The position numbers were made by a program, and so were the translations under genes. Below are positions 1 to 36,762 of a stretch of 36,762 bases of DNA, one piece after another. This DNA comes from Moorena sp. SIO3I8 (GTDB lineage Bacteria; Cyanobacteriota; Cyanobacteriia; Cyanobacteriales; Coleofasciculaceae). Position 1 is the stretch's first letter; every line of letters starts with the position of its first letter. Under the pieces are notes generated by a model that was not told where the DNA came from, ran no database searches, and saw only the letters and a program-made list of their open reading frames with translations. Location: assembly GCF_010692325.1 (NCBI RefSeq), contig NZ_JAAHHW010000069.1, positions 1 through 36,762 on the forward strand, written 5' to 3'.

Positions 1-337
1 AGGTTAAAGCAATCTTAGGATCTTTAAAGGGAGCTAACAGCTTTTCAATCCAATCTTGGTAGATGGGATAAACGTGAGCACTGGCAATAACGATGAATTG
101 CCCGGTGGCAGCCTGACATCCAAGGTTGAGCGCTCGCCCAAAGGAAAACTCCTCCGGTTTGATGGATAAGAGTTTGACTCGATAGCGGGATGCAATGGAT
201 GGAGTGGCATCAGTAGAACCTGAGTCAACAACAATGATTTCTACATCTTGGATTGTCTGCTGCATGATGCCACTGAGCAGACGACCGATGTGTTCTTCTT
301 CGTTATAGCAACGAATGATAATGGATATTTCAGGCAC
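1..337 (-). CDS. family 2 glycosyltransferase, N-terminal part (gene runs off the left edge)
   Basis: The minus strand gives an open frame starting PEISIIIRCYNEEEHIG, with VVDSGSTDAT about 35 residues in and then FSFGRALNLG. These are the usual landmarks of GT-A fold family 2 glycosyltransferases, which move a sugar from a nucleotide-sugar donor to an acceptor, often for surface polysaccharide or lipid-linked glycans. The start is a GTG at 337; an in-frame stop lies four codons further upstream, so no longer N-terminus is possible. About 112 residues are visible and the C-terminal part lies outside the window. The acceptor and sugar cannot be told. The next gene on the same strand is a carbamoyltransferase remnant, so both may once have belonged to a polysaccharide or glycan-modification cluster (inference). 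Confidence 0.85.
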   Translation of the reverse strand, partial: MPEISIIIRCYNEEEHIGRLLSGIMQQTIQDVEIIVVDSGSTDATPSIASRYRVKLLSIKPEEFSFGRALNLGCQAATGQFIVIASAHVYPIYQDWIEKLLAPFKDPKIALT

Positions 338-496
338 TTTGCTTAACTATAATGGGGTTTATAGTACAGCGTTAAGTATATACACTTAACCATTGGATAT
401 GAGTTCCAAAACCAAGGATTTATAGGTTGAATCAGGGTAAACGCATATAATTTTATGAGTCCTATATATAGTGTTTTTTGATTGGTATTTTTAAGA

Positions 497-1020
497 TTAA
501 CTTACTTTTTGTTTAGATAAAACAGGTTGAACTTTATTGGAGTTGTCAACTAAAAAATTACCCATCACCAGTAGATCTATATCACTGTAAACAAATGTGC
601 GCAAGGCATCTTCTGGTGTATTCACAATTGGTTCACCCCGTAAATTGTAGGAAGTGTTTAAGAGGACGGTAATTTCAGTTGCCTCACCAAACTTTTCGAT
701 TACTTGATAATAGAACGGGTTAGATTCTTGGCGAATAGCTTGTAGGCGACCTGTGCCATTATGGCAGACAGCTTGAATTTGCTCTTGCTTATCTTCAAGA
801 ATTGGTGCCACCATCTGCATATAGCGAGGCAGATATTGGTTTTGTAAATTAGAACCGGAAAAATAATGATTTACCTGTTCGGCTAAGATAACTGGTGCAA
901 AAGGACGAAATGGTTCTATAAATTTAATTTTGGTATTGACAATTTCCTTCATTTTTAGTTGACGTGGATCGGCTAAAATCGAGCGGTTTCCTAATGCTCT
1001 TGGACCCCATTCACCACGCC
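497..1020 (-). pseudogene. carbamoyltransferase (NodU/CmcH family), C-terminal fragment cut by an IS element
   Basis: The frame reads EWGPRALGNRSILADPR, then MKEIVNTKIKFIEPFRPFAPVI and later VLLNTSYNLRGEPIVNTPEDA. These are hallmark motifs of the C-terminal domain of NodU/CmcH-type O-carbamoyltransferases, which transfer a carbamoyl group from carbamoyl phosphate to a sugar or antibiotic. Family members are about 550-600 residues; only about 170 remain. The frame is open upstream of the ATG at 952, and homology continues to about position 1018, directly next to the terminal inverted repeat of the IS4-type element. The N-terminal half is not found on the far side of the IS, so the gene was interrupted and the rest lost or moved. 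A short protein could still be made from the internal ATG at 952, but it would lack the YrdC-like part of the active site. Confidence 0.85.
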
Positions 1021-2306
1021 TTTCAGGGGTAGGTTTTTAATAAACTGGAAAAAAACGCGATGCTCTTAAACAGCGGCTAAGGGAACACAGCCATGAAGAA
1101 GAATCAAGATTACCAAAAATGGTTGAGGACAGTGACTAAAAAAATGCCCCATCTGAGCAAACCTCAAGCAGAGGTTTTAGGGATGTGGAGTTTTGGCATT
1201 GTGATGACCGGCTCTTGTGGACTGACCACAGTGGCAGTTTTTCTAGCGGCCTTGCTCGGCAAAAAAGAAAACACTGTACGTCAACAGTTGCGGGAGTGGT
1301 ACAGAAATCAGCAAGACAAAAAAGGGGATAAACGAGCTGAACTTGATGTCACCAGCTGTGCAAGCCCCACTCCTGCAATGGGTGTTAAATGGATGGCCTC
1401 CCCAGAAAAAATCGATGGTTTTAGCTCTTGATGCTTCGTTCCTTTTGTTGCCGATTTACCCTCTTAGTTGTGAGGGTTGTCTATCGCGGCTGCGGTATTC
1501 CTGTGGCTTGGAAAGTGATCGAAGCCAAGGCTAAAGGCAGTTGGCAACCCTATTGGCTGGATTTACTCTCCCACCTTACAAACACAATTCCCCAGGACTG
1601 GTTAGTTTTGGTGATGGCTGACCGAGGACTGTATGCCAAGTGGCTCGTGCGTTGCAATTCAACAACAGGGTTGGCATCCGTTTTTACGAATTAACCAACT
1701 TCGACAGTTTCATCCGGTGGGTCAACCCAGCTTTGTTCCTTTAACCACAGTGGTGACCCAGAACGGTCAAAGCTGGTCAGGTCGAGTAACTTGCTTTTCT
1801 AGCAATCCCCTCAGTTGTACCTTGCTGGCTCGATGGGACTCTGGGTACTCAGATCCTTGGTTGATTGTCACCGATCTCGACCCAGATCAAGCTGAGGGTT
1901 GATGGTATCGAATGGGTTCTTGGATTGAGTGTCTCTTCAAGGATACGTTGGCGGGGAGGTTGGCAATGGCACCAGACGAAAATGACTGACCCCCAAAGGG
2001 CTGAGCGTCATTGGTTGGCAATTGCCATCGCCACCTTGTGGGTCGTCAGTGTTGGAGGGGAATCTGATCCTGATCTATCCTTCAACGACTCACAACAGTT
2101 ACCGGCAACCCCTGTCGAGAGTCAAAACTCTGACACCGGTACACCGAAACCCCGTGTTTTGAGCTGTTTTCGTCGGGGCAAGTTAGCTGATTCTTGCTGC
2201 TCTACTCAATCATCTTCCGTTACCTATCGGTCAATTTTTTCCCGATTTTTCTCCAAGTATTCCTTTTCTATCCTCAGCCCTTTATCTTAAAAACCTACCC
2301 TTGAAA
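1021..2306. mobile_element. degenerate IS4-type insertion sequence with 20-bp terminal inverted repeats
   Basis: The ends at 1021-1040 and 2287-2306 are inverted repeats that match at 19 of 20 bases (TTTCAGGGGTAGGTTTTTAA against TTTCAAGGGTAGGTTTTTAA). Between them lies a frameshifted DDE transposase. The length of about 1.29 kb suits an IS4-group element. No matching target duplication is visible (CGCC before, GAAG after), and the right flank does not continue the carbamoyltransferase. The right border has therefore probably been rearranged, or the element was not a simple recent insertion. Confidence 0.8.
1093..2290 (+). pseudogene. IS4-type DDE transposase, broken by several frameshifts
   Basis: The protein is spread over at least five frame segments. 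The N-terminal part runs from MKKNQDYQKWLRTVTKKMPH at 1093. The first catalytic Asp is in MVLALDASF (about 1415). The second is in LVLVMADRGLYAKWL (about 1600-1650). The Glu region is WIECLFKD (about 1922), and the frame then jumps again to MTDPQRAERHWLAIAIATLW. All three DDE landmarks are recognisable in order, so this was a full transposase of roughly 400 residues. It can no longer be made as one protein. Programmed frameshifting would explain at most one shift, not four. Confidence 0.85.
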
Positions 2307-2311
2307 GAAGG

Positions 2312-2424
2312 TAGGGTCGCCTTAATCAATAAGTTTCAACCAAAGGTGCCCTTGACCCGTAATTAAATTCGCCACGGGTCGCACCTCTTTTATGCATAGC
2401 CTGCCAACCCTAAAGGCGACCCTA
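2312..2424. repeat. nested palindrome, MITE-like, 113 bp
   Basis: Outer arms TAGGGTCGCCTT (2312-2323) and AAGGCGACCCTA (2413-2424) are perfect inverted repeats. Inside them AGGTGC/GCACCT (2344-2349, 2381-2386) encloses GACCCGT/ACGGGTC (2354-2360, 2374-2380), followed by CTTTTAT, which looks like a rho-independent terminator. It starts six bases after the IS right end. It could be a small non-autonomous element or a folded RNA. No gene is seen between 2307 and 2595. Confidence 0.6.
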
Positions 2425-2595
2425 TCCTTACGGTAACTTCAAGACGCTCACCCTACCGGGTAGAGCGCGGGGCTTCTCGCGGTTCGGCTAACGAAGGCAC
2501 CAGCTTAATTTATATCCCACAAAGCGCTAAAATAAGCCAGTGACCCTCCCTGTCCTATTCATAGGATTGGGAGAATCAAGCTCGAAACTGATAAA

Positions 2596-2916
2596 ATGCC
2601 CAAGACTTACACTGTCGAATTTAATCACAAAGGCAACACATACACTATAGAGGTGCCAGAGGATAAAAAAATTCTTGAAGCTGCCCATGGGGCAGGGATA
2701 GATTTACCCAGTTCCTGCACGGCTGGAGTCTGTACCACTTGCGCTGCCAAACGAGTAGCAGAAGGCAGTGTAGACCAAACCGATGGCATGGGTTTAGGCC
2801 CACAACTCCAAGCAGAAGGCTATGTGCTGCTGTGTGTAGCTTATCCCCGCTCTAACCTGAAATTTGACACCGAAAAAGAAGATGAAGTGTACGACCGGCA
2901 GTTTGGTCAGCCGTGA
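2596..2916 (+). CDS. plant-type 2Fe-2S ferredoxin
   Basis: A 106-residue soluble protein with the plant-type [2Fe-2S] ferredoxin fold. The cluster ligands are C41, C46, C49 (PSSCTAGVCTTCAAK) and C80 (YVLLCVAYP), the canonical C-x4-C-x2-C spacing with the fourth Cys about 30 residues later. It would carry single electrons between photosystem I or other donors and soluble reductases. The C-terminus (KEDEVYDRQFGQP) is longer than in the main photosynthetic ferredoxin, and the sequence resembles the minor cyanobacterial ferredoxin group (Slr1828-like, from memory), so the specific partner is unknown. It stands alone, with a gene-free stretch on each side. Confidence 0.93.
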   Translation: MPKTYTVEFNHKGNTYTIEVPEDKKILEAAHGAGIDLPSSCTAGVCTTCAAKRVAEGSVDQTDGMGLGPQLQAEGYVLLCVAYPRSNLKFDTEKEDEVYDRQFGQP

Positions 2917-2950
2917 TCAGGTCAGTGCTGCTATATAATCTTAAGTATTT

Positions 2951-2987
2951 AGCTGTCAGCTATCAGCTATGAGCTATCAGCTATCAG
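2951..2987. repeat. heptanucleotide tandem repeat (AGCTATC type)
   Basis: About five imperfect copies of a 7-base unit (AGCTGTC, AGCTATC, AGCTATG, AGCTATC, AGCTATC). Related words recur in inverted orientation near 3082-3112. This is a short tandem repeat of the kind common between cyanobacterial genes. Confidence 0.75.
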
Positions 2988-3211
2988 AGGCTTTAACTGC
3001 TCCGGGTTTGATGAGTAAAACAAGCAGGGATTTTCAAGCAGCCGTATCAGCAGCCCCAGCTTGTTTACTACCGACCGTTGATTAGCTGACGACTGACGGC
3101 TGATAGCTGAATGCTTAAATATAATCAAATACCATTAGCCGAATAGCGAGAAGTAATGGTTAGATAGATTAGGATAGCCAGATTATCCTAATTAGAATTA
3201 GGGAGAAAACT

Positions 3212-3391
3212 ATGACAACCCATTTCATTACTGCAGAAATTGACCTCCAAGAGTCCCCTAAGGAACTGCACCAAGCTATTGAAGCAGAACTACAAGAACG
3301 GGGAGAACCCCTGCGCTGGGCAGTTACCCATGTAGACCCTGAGCAGGAGAAAGCTACGGTAGAGGCGATTGTGACTAAAGAGCGCAAATAG
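3212..3391 (+). CDS. 59-aa conserved small cyanobacterial protein upstream of DUF3326
   Basis: The frame starts MTTHFITAEIDLQESPKELH and ends VEAIVTKERK. It has a good ribosome binding site (AGGGAGA, about 6 bases before the ATG) and stops three bases before the DUF3326 start. It is acidic, has no membrane segment or signal peptide, and is predicted to be a small alpha/beta protein. I recall similar short proteins in other cyanobacteria next to the same neighbour, but no function is known to me. The three-base gap to the next gene makes co-translation with DUF3326 very likely. Confidence 0.8.
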   Translation: MTTHFITAEIDLQESPKELHQAIEAELQERGEPLRWAVTHVDPEQEKATVEAIVTKERK

Positions 3392-3394
3392 TAA

Positions 3395-4519
3395 GTGAAT
3401 CAGCGTGCCTATACCGTTGTTTTAATCATTCCTACTGGTGTAGGAGCGTCGATTGGTGGGTATGCCGGGGATGCCTTGCCAGTAGCTAGAGCGATCGCAC
3501 AAGTTAGCGATCGCTTAATCACCCATCCCAATGTGCTCAATGGTGCCCAGTTGTACTGGAACTTACCCAACGCCTTCTATGTAGAAGGCTATGGCCTTGA
3601 CAAATTTGCCGCTGGATGCTGGGGATTACGCCCAGTACATCAGAACCGGGTGGGATTACTCCTGGATCAGGGGATTGAACCAGAACTACGGTTGAGACAC
3701 CTACAAGCAGCAGATGCCACCAGAGCTACCCTAGGACTGAATCTAACCGACTACGTAGTCACAGATGCTCCCTTAAATGTAGAACTGCGCACAGCAGCAT
3801 CTGGAGCGAGTTGGGGAACAATTGGAAATCCCGATAGTTTATTGCGAGCAGCCCAAGTCTTGATTGAGCAAGCCGGAGCAAATGCGATCGCAGTAGTCGT
3901 GCGTTTTCCCGATGACATGGATAGTCAAGCATTGCAAGATTACCGTCATGGCCGAGGCGTAGACCCCCTCGCTGGTGCTGAAGCCATTATCAGTCACTTG
4001 ATTGTTCGTACCTTTCAAATTCCCTGTGCTCATGCACCAGCATTGATGCCTTTACCCATCGATCCTAAATTGTCACCTCGTTCAGCAGCAGAGGAATTGG
4101 GCTATACCTTCTTACCCTGTGTTTTAGTAGGATTGAGTCGCGCTCCCCAATTTGTCCTCAACCAAAAAAATTTTCCCTCCTCCCTTGCTAATCCAGATTC
4201 TCAAACGATTTCCTCAAAACCGGGAGACATCTGGGCTGATGATGTAGATGCGATTGTGATACCAGCAACCGCCTGTGGTGGTAGTGCAATGTTAAGCTTT
4301 AGCCAGCTGCAAACCCAGATCATTGCCGTTGAAGAAAACCAAACTACCATGGAAGTACCTCCAGAACCTTTGGGAATTAAAGCCATACGAGTAAACTCAT
4401 ATTTAGAGGCTCTAGGCTTGCTGGTTAGCCATCGTGCTGGGATCAGTCCTAAAGCTCTGAGTCCATCCCTATCATCCCTGGGTCGCTTAAATTTTTGTGA
4501 CAAAACAAATTCCCGATAA
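3395..4519 (+). CDS. DUF3326 family protein
   Basis: A 374-residue protein from a GTG start three bases after the preceding stop. It opens with VVLIIPTGVGASIGGYAGDA, a glycine-rich segment typical of DUF3326, a family conserved in cyanobacteria and plastid-bearing plants with no assigned reaction. Other conserved-looking parts are HPNVLNGAQLYWNLPNAFYVEG, TDAPLNVELRTAASGASWGT and VIPATACGGSAM. No signal peptide or membrane helix is seen, so it should be cytosolic. Its 3' end overlaps the CPBP protease gene by 23 bases in another frame, and it follows the 59-aa gene closely, so the three genes look like one transcription unit. Confidence 0.88.
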   Translation: MNQRAYTVVLIIPTGVGASIGGYAGDALPVARAIAQVSDRLITHPNVLNGAQLYWNLPNAFYVEGYGLDKFAAGCWGLRPVHQNRVGLLLDQGIEPELRLRHLQAADATRATLGLNLTDYVVTDAPLNVELRTAASGASWGTIGNPDSLLRAAQVLIEQAGANAIAVVVRFPDDMDSQALQDYRHGRGVDPLAGAEAIISHLIVRTFQIPCAHAPALMPLPIDPKLSPRSAAEELGYTFLPCVLVGLSRAPQFVLNQKNFPSSLANPDSQTISSKPGDIWADDVDAIVIPATACGGSAMLSFSQLQTQIIAVEENQTTMEVPPEPLGIKAIRVNSYLEALGLLVSHRAGISPKALSPSLSSLGRLNFCDKTNSR

Positions 4520-32453: not shown

Positions 32454-32951
32454 ATGGGTAAGGTTCTGGTGTTAAACGCCTCCTATGAGCCGCTCAACAT
32501 CACCAACTGGCGACGGGCGGTTGTGTTGTTGATCAAGGGTAAGGCAGAGCGTATCGAACATAACGGCAAATACGTTTACGCAGATTTTCCACTGCCTACA
32601 GTGATTAGACTGCGCCATTACGTCCGGGTACCCTACAAAGAGATTCCCCTTACCCGTCGTAACATCCTGCACCGTGATGGTCACTCTTGTCAATACTGCG
32701 GTTACAGTGGTGATGACTTAACGTTAGATCATGTAATTCCTCGTTCTCGCCATGGAGGTGACTCCTGGGAAAATCTTGTTACAGCTTGCGTGCGCTGCAA
32801 CGTCAAAAAAGGGAATCGCACCCCTAAAGAAGCCAACATGATGTTGCGAACCCAACCCCGGAGACCTTATAGTAGTCTCCACTTTGAAATTGCTAAAGAC
32901 TTAAAAACTGGACGGCATCAGGAGTGGCGGAAGTATGTGATTGGTGCTTAG
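32454..32951 (+). CDS. HNH endonuclease domain protein
   Basis: A 165-residue basic protein of a type conserved across cyanobacteria. The N-terminal half (VLVLNASYEPLNITNWRRAV) is the usual lead-in, followed by a zinc-ribbon HNH: C79 and C82 (CQYCG), D92-H93 in LDHVIPRSRHGG, N107, C112 and C115 (CVRCNVKKGN). The catalytic His and metal ligands are present, so nuclease activity is plausible. Its biological job is unknown; universal presence and absence of a partner immunity or mobile gene suggest housekeeping DNA work and not selfish homing (inference). Unrelated in layout to the IscB at the right edge, apart from the shared HNH fold. Confidence 0.9.
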   Translation: MGKVLVLNASYEPLNITNWRRAVVLLIKGKAERIEHNGKYVYADFPLPTVIRLRHYVRVPYKEIPLTRRNILHRDGHSCQYCGYSGDDLTLDHVIPRSRHGGDSWENLVTACVRCNVKKGNRTPKEANMMLRTQPRRPYSSLHFEIAKDLKTGRHQEWRKYVIGA

Positions 32952-34542: not shown

Positions 34543-35040
34543 ATGGAACTCTACTTAATTCGCCACGGTATTGCTGCTGAGCGAGGCACCTACAACAACG
34601 ATCGAGAGCGGCCACTGACCAAAATTGGCCATGAAAAAACTAGTAAAGTAGCAAAGGAGCTCCATAAACGAGGGCTAAACTTTGACCTAATCTTGACTAG
34701 TCCATTGGTCAGAGCTAAGGAAACCGCTGCTATCCTCCAAGATGTTGGTTTAGGCTCATTGGTTGAAGAGTCAGAGAGTCTCGCTCCTGAGGGAGACATT
34801 CACCAATGGCTCAGCTGGCTACAGCAGAGGTGGAGAAAGACTAATGCTCAAAGACGTTTGGCTCTAGTTGGTCATCAACCGGATTTAGCGAATTGGGCGG
34901 AAATGTTGGTGTGGGGAGTATCCAATCAAAAACTAGTGCTCAAAAAAGCTGGAGTAATTGGGTTAAAGCTTCCTAATACTGGGAAGCCCTTCGGTCGCAG
35001 TGAGCTATTCTTGCTGACCTCACCTAAGTGGTTAGTATAG
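34543..35040 (+). CDS. sixA: phosphohistidine phosphatase SixA
   Basis: A 165-residue histidine phosphatase. MELYLIRHGIAAERG has the RHG signature with nucleophile H8. LTSPLVRAKETAAIL carries the second Arg, and LALVGHQPDL the second catalytic His. SixA removes phosphate from phosphohistidine in Hpt domains or phosphotransferase proteins. Length is right for the family. A GCGATCGC (HIP1) site lies about 36 bases upstream. It is the last chromosomal-type gene before the IscB element. Confidence 0.93.
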   Translation: MELYLIRHGIAAERGTYNNDRERPLTKIGHEKTSKVAKELHKRGLNFDLILTSPLVRAKETAAILQDVGLGSLVEESESLAPEGDIHQWLSWLQQRWRKTNAQRRLALVGHQPDLANWAEMLVWGVSNQKLVLKKAGVIGLKLPNTGKPFGRSELFLLTSPKWLV

Positions 35041-35107
35041 CCATCTTTCAGGGTTGATGGTGTTCGGAATCTCCCCCCATTCATGGGTCAGAGAAGTCAA
35101 AGAGTGC

Positions 35108-35113
35108 TATAAT
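35108..35113 (+). promoter_or_regulatory. TATAAT -10 box candidate for the omega-RNA/iscB transcript
   Basis: A perfect TATAAT, followed within ten bases by the start of the structured region. No good -35 box is visible at the usual distance (TCATGG near 35081). Transcription would begin near 35120. Confidence 0.4.
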
Positions 35114-35119
35114 ATAGTC

Positions 35120-35489
35120 ATCACAGTAAAAATAATCTTTGTAGCACGGAAGAGTTAAGCACTAATCTCTGGTAAGTCGGCCTGAGATGAATGAAGATTC
35201 TGTAGGTAATAACGTCACGAACCCACCGTTAACCGCTAATCGCGGTATAACGGGGGCTTGAAAAAGCTCATAACGTGACCAGCCTAAGTACTCGAAGTAC
35301 TCCGTTTTTTGAGCTATCACACCCTTAGATGCGTCGCTAGTCTTTTGCTCTGTGGTTAATAGTTAAACAGTCGTAAACGGGTTAGGACAGTGCTATTAGC
35401 AAGACAAACTCAAAAAACATTGGCGTTCGCGCCAGCGTGTGCGAAGCACTCAGCGAACTTCACCCTAGTAATAGGAGAGAAACACAATT
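35120..35489 (+). ncRNA. candidate omega-RNA of the IscB system
   Basis: IscB proteins use a guide RNA encoded directly upstream of their gene on the same strand. These 370 bases are non-coding and well folded. GTCAC (35214-35218) pairs with GTGAC (35275-35279) and encloses a hairpin of CCGTTA/TAACGG (35226-35231, 35248-35253) with CCGC/GCGG inside it. AGCTCA (35265-35270), inside that loop, can pair with TGAGCT (35310-35315) outside, making a pseudoknot. AGTACT-CGA-AGTACT forms a hairpin at 35287-35301. TGGCG-TTCG-CGCCA forms a UUCG-capped hairpin at 35421-35434. GGCCTGAGATGAATG near 35179 resembles a motif I recall from a characterised omega-RNA. The guide should be at the 5' end, before the conserved scaffold; its exact limits cannot be read here. 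Confidence 0.7.
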
Positions 35490-36762
35490 ATGCGTGTTTT
35501 TGTACTCGATAAAAACCTTAAAACACTAGACCCTTGTCGTCCCGCCAGAGCTAGATTATTGCTCAAACAAGGTAGAGCCAAAGTGTTTAGAAGGTATCCA
35601 TTTACAATCATCCTGTCAGATTTGGAGGTAGAAAACTGTACTACTCATCATCACCAGTTAAAAATTGACCCAGGGGCAAAAACAACAGGTTTAGCAATTC
35701 GGCAAAACAACACTGTTATTTGGGGTGCTGAAATAACGCATCGTGGATTCCAAATCCGAGATGCTTTAACCTCAAGACGACAATTAAGACGTTCTCGCCG
35801 TAACCGTAAAACTCGTTATAGAAAACCTCGCTTTCTTAATCGGAAACGTCCCGAGAGGTGGTTAGCGCCTAGTTTAATGTCTAGAGTTCATAACATTCTG
35901 ACTTGGGTTAAAAAACTGATTCGGTTTTGTCCGATAGCGGGTATTTCTCAGGAGTTGGTACGGTTTGACACTCAAAAGACGGAGAACCCAGAAATCTCTG
36001 GTACTGAGTATCAGCAAGGTACATTGTACGGCTACGAAATTCGAGAATACTTGCTTGAAAAATGGAACCGTAAATGCGCTTACTGTGGTACAACGGATAC
36101 CAAGTTAGAAATCGAACATATCAAGCCCAAATCTTTAGGGGGTTCCGACAGAGTTAGCAATCTGGCAATTGCTTGTCACGATTGTAATCAGGCTAAAGGA
36201 AACCAGGAGATTCAACAGTTCTTGTCAGGGAAGCCTGATGTTTTGAGACGAATTCTGTCTCAAGCCAAACGACCTTTAGCTGATGCCGCTGCGGTTAATG
36301 CTACTCGCTGGAAGCTTTACAAAGAACTCAAATCTATCGGTAACCCATTAGAAACCGGTTCGGGAGGTCGTACTAAATACAATCGGTGTCGGTTTAACCT
36401 ACCTAAAACACATTGGCTTGATGCTGCCTGTGTGGGGAATGTTCAAAGCATTTATGTTGAGAATTATCAACCTCTATTGATTGAGGCTAAAGGTCACGGA
36501 ACTCGTCAAATCTGCCGAACAGATAAGTTCGGGTTTCCGAAGAGGTACTGTTCAAGAACTAAGATTCACAAAGGTTTTCAGACCGGAGATATTGTCAAAG
36601 CAGTTGTCACTAAAGGCAAGAAAATCGGAACTTACGTTGGACGGGTTGCCACTCGCAAAACCGGGTCATTCAATATTTCAACTGCTAACGGATTGATTCA
36701 AGGAATTAGTCATAAATATTGTCAGCCAATTCACAAAAAGGATGGTTATGCCTATACAATTT
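35490..36762 (+). CDS. iscB: IscB RNA-guided nuclease (runs off the right edge by a few residues)
   Basis: 424 residues are visible and the frame is open to the last base; relatives end at about this length. The start ATG has a good ribosome site (AGGAGAG). Domains in order: N-terminal PLMP-type region (MRVFVLDKNLKTLDPCRPAR, with LDPC where most have LMP), RuvC-I LKIDPGAKTTGLAI (D60), Arg-rich bridge helix (96-124), RuvC-II ISQELVRFDTQK (E155), HNH with CAYCG (C197, C200), LEIEHIKPKSLGG (H210) and CHDCNQAKGN (C229, C232), RuvC-III THWLDAACVG (D311), then the C-terminal target-interaction part with GFQTGDIVKAVVTKGKKIG and GRVATRKTGSFNI. All catalytic residues are intact. It is ancestral to Cas9 and works with the omega-RNA upstream. 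Confidence 0.95.
   Translation, partial: MRVFVLDKNLKTLDPCRPARARLLLKQGRAKVFRRYPFTIILSDLEVENCTTHHHQLKIDPGAKTTGLAIRQNNTVIWGAEITHRGFQIRDALTSRRQLRRSRRNRKTRYRKPRFLNRKRPERWLAPSLMSRVHNILTWVKKLIRFCPIAGISQELVRFDTQKTENPEISGTEYQQGTLYGYEIREYLLEKWNRKCAYCGTTDTKLEIEHIKPKSLGGSDRVSNLAIACHDCNQAKGNQEIQQFLSGKPDVLRRILSQAKRPLADAAAVNATRWKLYKELKSIGNPLETGSGGRTKYNRCRFNLPKTHWLDAACVGNVQSIYVENYQPLLIEAKGHGTRQICRTDKFGFPKRYCSRTKIHKGFQTGDIVKAVVTKGKKIGTYVGRVATRKTGSFNISTANGLIQGISHKYCQPIHKKDGYAYTI

Follow-up and report, generated by a model that had tools for sequence, protein, structure and literature searches.

At the right-hand end of the window, the whole stretch of 36,762 nucleotides from Moorena sp. SIO3I8 that was analysed, lies an iscB gene with an omega-RNA scaffold directly upstream (Table 1). 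The window is contig C477 of a 7.99-Mb genome in 510 contigs (G000). As the initial annotation had noticed, iscB has no stop inside the window, and the gene is not cut short: the coding frame occupies 35490-36761, base 36762 is the T of a TAA that is completed on contig C145, and only the 'AA' falls outside. In a profile search, the product scored 479 bits against the IscB model NF040563 (cutoff 175), with no other HNH/RuvC family on top, and matched both RRXRR and HNH of Pfam, which places it in the IscB family; its relatives in the PDB include TbaIscB, HfmIscB and OgeuIscB. Across an alignment of 25 homologues of our choosing, the RuvC residues D60, E155, H308 and D311, the HNH residue H210 and the cysteines C196, C199, C229 and C232 showed no variation, and D60, E155, H210 and D311, first read from the letters alone, stood where they had been placed. 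The TbaIscB chain has alanine at the positions of D60 and H210, probably as inactivating changes, and the spacing of H308 and D311 equals that of H340 and D343 in OgeuIscB (PMC9640706, cited throughout from excerpts). Against three copies of about 90% identity, dN/dS of the window gene was 0.15, 0.09 and 0.14; comparison with four further copies gave 0.08 twice and no computable value in the other two cases. These values, with the intact frame, support purifying selection on a gene that had been described as intact-looking. A separate 165-amino-acid HNH endonuclease-like protein is encoded at 32454-32951, about 2.3 kb to the left of the element.

A covariance search upstream of iscB returned HEARO (RF02033) with 125.3 bits against a gathering score of 83; no other Rfam family reached its gathering score in the window. 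HEARO also scored above gathering beside 12 of the 16 IscB copies of the same genome, contrary to the refuting condition that the upstream bases lack conservation. The initial annotation had described 370 structured bases before iscB; this held for 35214-35463, whereas the 106 bases at 35108-35213 are host leader, of which the last 16 or so form the predicted guide. A guide of about 16-17 nt is described for IscB (PMC9640706). The element does not start at 35108, a candidate that was ruled out because empty sites in two related genomes (G001 and G003) set the left end to the base. The TATAAT noted at 35108 is indeed present, in the host leader; it recurs in the corresponding leaders of G001 and G002 and is missing from that of G003, and a sigma-70 consensus scan of 34800-35700 found no promoter-like site (1.3 expected from shuffles). 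Judged by sequence, the combination confirms an apparently intact IscB element with its own omega-RNA, of the known IscB/HEARO kind.

Table 1 Features of the IscB element and its left flank in the window.
Feature	Position	Strand	Basis or remark
TATAAT, perhaps the -10 box of the gltA promoter; in host DNA left of the element	35108..35113	+	weak
Predicted omega-RNA guide, the host gltA 5' leader adjoining the left of the element	35198..35213	+	empty sites in G001 and G003
Omega-RNA scaffold (HEARO); left element end at 35214	35214..35463	+	Rfam RF02033 and empty sites
iscB	35490..36762	+	424 aa; NF040563 479 bits, Pfam RRXRR and HNH

In G001 and G003, both of the same genus, homology to the window ends at 35213 and resumes at C145:216. 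Both genomes therefore hold the empty site, and C145 continues the window contig. The element spans window position 35214 to C145:215, so that extending the contig, as had been proposed, located both its right end and the iscB stop beyond the window. The empty site reads leader-TAATAAC, then ATGATAGC. Position C145:216 opens the ATG of the citrate synthase gene gltA (Pfam 466 bits, 378 amino acids), and the target-adjacent motif (TAM), ATGA, is the gltA start codon. This ATG lies at the same place in G005, G009 and G012, which belong to other genera, and is there the first in-frame ATG downstream of the last stop; the start region of G004 differs by a codon or more, leaving three of four other-genus loci in agreement. 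The Moorena leaders hold an additional in-frame ATG nine codons upstream. The 16 guide nucleotides stand unchanged immediately before ATGA in the empty sites of G001 and G003, and, in a search with 15 guide bases, the G002 gltA site is a target with one mismatch. The guide in the 5' flank thus matches the empty site beside the TAM, and the window guide had no second perfect target in its own genome in a search up to 3 mismatches.

We give hardly any credence to the gltA junction being an assembly artefact in which C145 belongs to another IscB copy. It is true that the first 18 bases of C145 differ from the window copy and that the two contigs share merely a 126-base identical repeat end. However, the left flank on C477 and the right flank on C145 adjoin to the base in two other genomes, and gltA gave one match in the window genome (E up to 1e-30), which argues against an origin from another copy; on both grounds C145 as an unrelated copy was rejected.

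In sister genomes, the gltA leader carries other insertions. The leader in G003 (L031) has one of about 590 bases, and that in G002 (G002:C1:6722205-6723953) one of about 1.7 kb. On the minus strand of C145, near gltA, is a 410-amino-acid frame (L044:3125-4357) that we take to be a TnpB protein.

Residence at a start codon recurs in the subfamily of the window element. The 25 copies compared were picked because their ends fit a pattern of a purine motif and then ATGA, which builds in the presence of the motif and leaves the start codon free; L052, L072 and L079 fit the pattern through another kind of end and were excluded by hand (by open reading frame (ORF) length, L052 with 240 amino acids precedes a start, and L072 with 58 and L079 with 4 do not). 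An ORF of 89 amino acids or more begins at the ATG of the TAM in 21 of the 25 copies, all except L004, L046, L047 and L071. Counting L005 and L067 as one site, 20 of 24 independent sites are starts by ORF length, compared with 118 of 1,264 control ATGA sites, and four do not precede an ORF of 80 amino acids; scoring L061, which has an odd N terminus, as a miss gives 19/24 (p = 7e-16). When an in-frame stop at most 105 bases upstream was also required, 18 of 22 sites were starts versus 67 of 1,264 controls (p = 6.5e-20), L063 and L064 having no usable left end and entering the ORF-length test alone. Limiting the control to start and non-coding ATGA sites raised its share to 67/452 (14.8%) against the same 18/22 (p = 4.8e-12); smaller controls gave 9/285 for ATGA in the window and 20/318 in other loci. 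Dropping the end pattern altogether gave 25 starts by ORF length among 30 sites (p = 1.6e-21), a count that takes in all 33 copies of more than 62% identity with a complete C terminus: the 25 of the window type, seven of a second type (five sites) and L052.

The genes behind these insertions are diverse. Among 20 downstream proteins scanned, 19 matched Pfam families, the exception being that of L066, and the genes encode, among others, ribosomal protein L19, HypD, a peroxidase (presumably KatG), RmlD, LptF/LptG, glutaredoxin, an ArsR-type regulator and a CobB/CobQ-type amidotransferase.

The right end of the element carries what looks, from its sequence, like a spare ribosome-binding site for gltA: GGAGG at -12 to -8, 7 nt before the ATG. 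All 25 copies have a motif of this kind (GGAGG, GAGGG, GGGAG or GGGGG), at -12 in 24 and at -11 in one; its presence was built into the selection of the copies, its distance was not. A hairpin is predicted here, with GGAGG as its 3' arm and the 5' arm near the iscB stop. Between stop and ATG, 14 of the 25 copies have 69-72 bases; the spacing in the others, which have extra repeats or shifted stops, is 16-135. In an alignment of 14 of the 25 ends, 22 pairs were predicted and 11 had double-sided changes, three of these (columns 36, 37 and 39) in the GGAGG stem; four of the nine pairs there are disrupted in one or two of the sequences. The hairpin is thus conserved and, as modelled, partly covarying, and it may act as RNA, as transposon-end DNA or as both. 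In L066 (G001:C3:671480-672745), the right-end hairpin is deleted, and GGAGG and the downstream gene are retained.

Other lineages were counted with the ORF-length test, in which 34 of 78 loci were given a right end; the 55%-identical group of the same genome (L009-L016) and most of the distant loci were assigned none. Halomonad elements have no GGAGG and sit at starts in 11 of 15 cases (12/16 with L188, which was added through a wider end pattern), compared with 126 of 554 controls; 19 were listed, of which two were absent or partial (one, L186, from Crocosphaera) and two lacked the end motif. Elements of Crocosphaera, Cyanothece and a Xenococcaceae MAG have GGAGG at -12 and an ATGG target, with 4/5 at starts versus 30/207 in the control. 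Seven of these were listed, L176 lacking the motif, which gives 4/6, and 4/5 once L173 (Nostoc, another end) is removed; L178, whose contig runs out, was scored as a miss. Among Moorena ATGG/GTGG elements lacking GGAGG, the count was 4/11 (control, 22/205), and a mostly GTGA-type group gave 0/8 (control, 54/343; 12 listed, four without the motif, L197 among those counted having ATGA). A second Moorena ATGA type without GGAGG had four of five sites at starts, and a fifth set, made up of further Moorena and Prochloron records, had 5/5, three of which repeat counted sites, so that the set was not added. Of 16 listed downstream proteins in these lineages, ten were scanned and all ten had Pfam matches, several of which (cyclophilin and dTDP-4-dehydrorhamnose 3,5-epimerase, for example) begin near residue 1. 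Start-codon residence as a general IscB rule was rejected on the 0/8 and 4/11 counts; the lineage counts indicate that it is common among ATGA-type elements without being universal, and that GGAGG is not strictly required for it.

Of the 16 long IscB copies in the window genome, 13 are nearly full length and uninterrupted by a stop. A search with an E-value limit of 1e-60 gave 35 IscB matches in G001, 15 in G002, 13 in G003, five in G004 and four in G005, and none in four other genomes searched. No linked tnpA (Y1) match was found on C477 or C145; the 13 Y1 transposase matches elsewhere in the genome, several of them broken, make mobilisation in trans possible. Among the matches listed for 23 joined flank pairs, 18 pairs had a hit spanning the junction in one or more of G000-G003, and five (L047, L053, L062, L070 and L078) had none. 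The sister alleles of the L070 site are longer there by about 47 bases. From 30 loci among the matches listed, we read 30 empty alleles at 14 sites: in 29 the TAM is still beside the guide, and 18 of these are identical to the guide at all 16 bases.

We consider it probable that an apparently intact IscB/omega-RNA element has inserted exactly between the gltA 5' leader and start codon, is kept there by guide-directed homing and brings, at its right end, a GGAGG for gltA. Transcribed together with the omega-RNA, the flanking leader would serve as its 5' guide, and IscB with this RNA would cut any allele without the element, because leader and ATGA are joined there as target and TAM; repair from an occupied copy would then restore the element. 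Transcription of a guide that is not part of the element has to begin in host DNA, and landing in a gene leader would supply a host promoter, for which the TATAAT, as a gltA promoter serving guide transcription, is a candidate not kept in G003. We infer that GGAGG, seven bases before the host ATG and held in the hairpin, would serve gltA translation and so rescue it, and that a ribosome ending iscB could open the hairpin and couple gltA translation to that of iscB.

Several observations count against parts of this account. GGAGG doubles as one side of the right-end hairpin, which may be required in DNA form by a Y1 transposase; just three of the 11 double-sided changes fall in its stem, where four pairs are disrupted in places, and Halomonad elements reside at start codons without it. 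Four of the 24 independent sites precede no ORF of 80 amino acids. Also to be weighed are the in-frame ATG nine codons upstream in Moorena leaders, the missing TATAAT in G003 and the empty promoter scan. A stronger version, that of an IscB lineage specialised on start codons, with the TAM as start codon, a borrowed host promoter and a hairpin-gated Shine-Dalgarno sequence coupled to the end of iscB, is offered only tentatively and falls somewhat short of being probable. Rather unlikely, in our estimate, is an ordinary IscB element that reaches start codons through its ATGA target and through selection against intragenic insertions, with GGAGG merely the arm of a transposon-end hairpin. The Y1 transposase matches in the genome fit such an element, as do the low counts of the Moorena ATGG/GTGG and mostly GTGA types and the Halomonad elements without GGAGG. 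It predicts, however, 14.8% starts, the share among start and non-coding ATGA sites, where 18/22 were observed, and the fixed position of the motif at -12 argues against a mere hairpin arm. The five elements from Crocosphaera and its kin point the same way, having GGAGG at the same distance in a different arm, although they were selected by a pattern that includes the motif and perhaps share one origin. Domestication of this IscB copy into a gltA regulator would suit an element in the leader of a central metabolic gene that is single in the genome; it is nevertheless very unlikely, given that gltA of G001, G002 and G003 lacks the element and that sister copies precede many unrelated genes.

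The guide of TnpB lies at the 3' end of its RNA, and we know of no start-codon rule for TnpB, which is a different nuclease. Homing-like retention is nonetheless described for TnpB of IS200/IS605 elements, in which the guide records the flank and the empty site is cut (excerpts of PMC11870625); the window element shares the flank as guide and the empty site as target, and cutting here would follow the same course. IscB proteins carry out RNA-guided cutting beside a TAM with about 17 guide bases (PMC9640706). The IscB model match, the RuvC/HNH residues, RRXRR and the upstream HEARO liken the window element to IscB/HEARO (OMEGA) systems such as OgeuIscB, with which it also shares a 5' guide from the left flank and a TAM on the right (PMC9640706). 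It differs in its TAM, ATGA as the start codon of a gene instead of NNRR (PMC9640706), and in the Shine-Dalgarno-like GGAGG at -12. IStrons, which join a group I intron and an insertion sequence, likewise lessen the harm of insertion at the RNA level (excerpts of PMC4227781); they splice out, whereas the window element would remain part of the transcript, to which it apparently adds a ribosome-binding site.

Whereas IscB/HEARO elements are already known, what is unexpected at this locus is the residence at the gltA start codon with a motif resembling a spare ribosome-binding site, features that, by sequence comparison, appear common to most close relatives. The excerpts of PMC9755519, PMC13180657, PMC9640706, PMC11870625 and PMC9581776 make no mention of start-codon insertion. 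Nor was a report of start-codon residence of IscB found in the literature searched, a scope outside which the founding IscB/HEARO papers lie. Weinberg 2009 is said to report ATGA/RTGA after the HEARO element, so part of the start-codon finding may be in print. If the proposed account is true, it would explain how IscB elements can be numerous and still stand before important genes and why ATGA-type targets are preferred, and would show where the promoter of an IscB guide outside the element comes from. Under the stronger version, essential genes would be safe and binding homes, alleles that lose the element being cut again. The loci also offer natural triplets of guide, target and TAM with sister-species controls for native IscB function, and possibly a translational-coupling part that travels with a transposon.

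Three further loci showed unusual structures. L134 (G000:C68), an empty allele of insertion L085, has an extra AG between guide and ATGG that is absent in two sister genomes; it could be an excision footprint, because the right end of the element also finishes in AG. In the left flank of insertion L073 (for example, G001:C9:223540-223722), about 45 bases recur many times in the genomes compared, sometimes head to tail. At L045:1230-3590 (G000:C27, copy L009), a group II intron with a 561-amino-acid ORF, presumably a reverse transcriptase/maturase, seemingly lies inside an omega-RNA: a 5' HEARO part ending just before GTGCGA, missed by an Rfam scan of 1-3520, was seen by eye, and a 3' part (positions 53-197, 73.7 bits, below gathering) follows directly after domain V.
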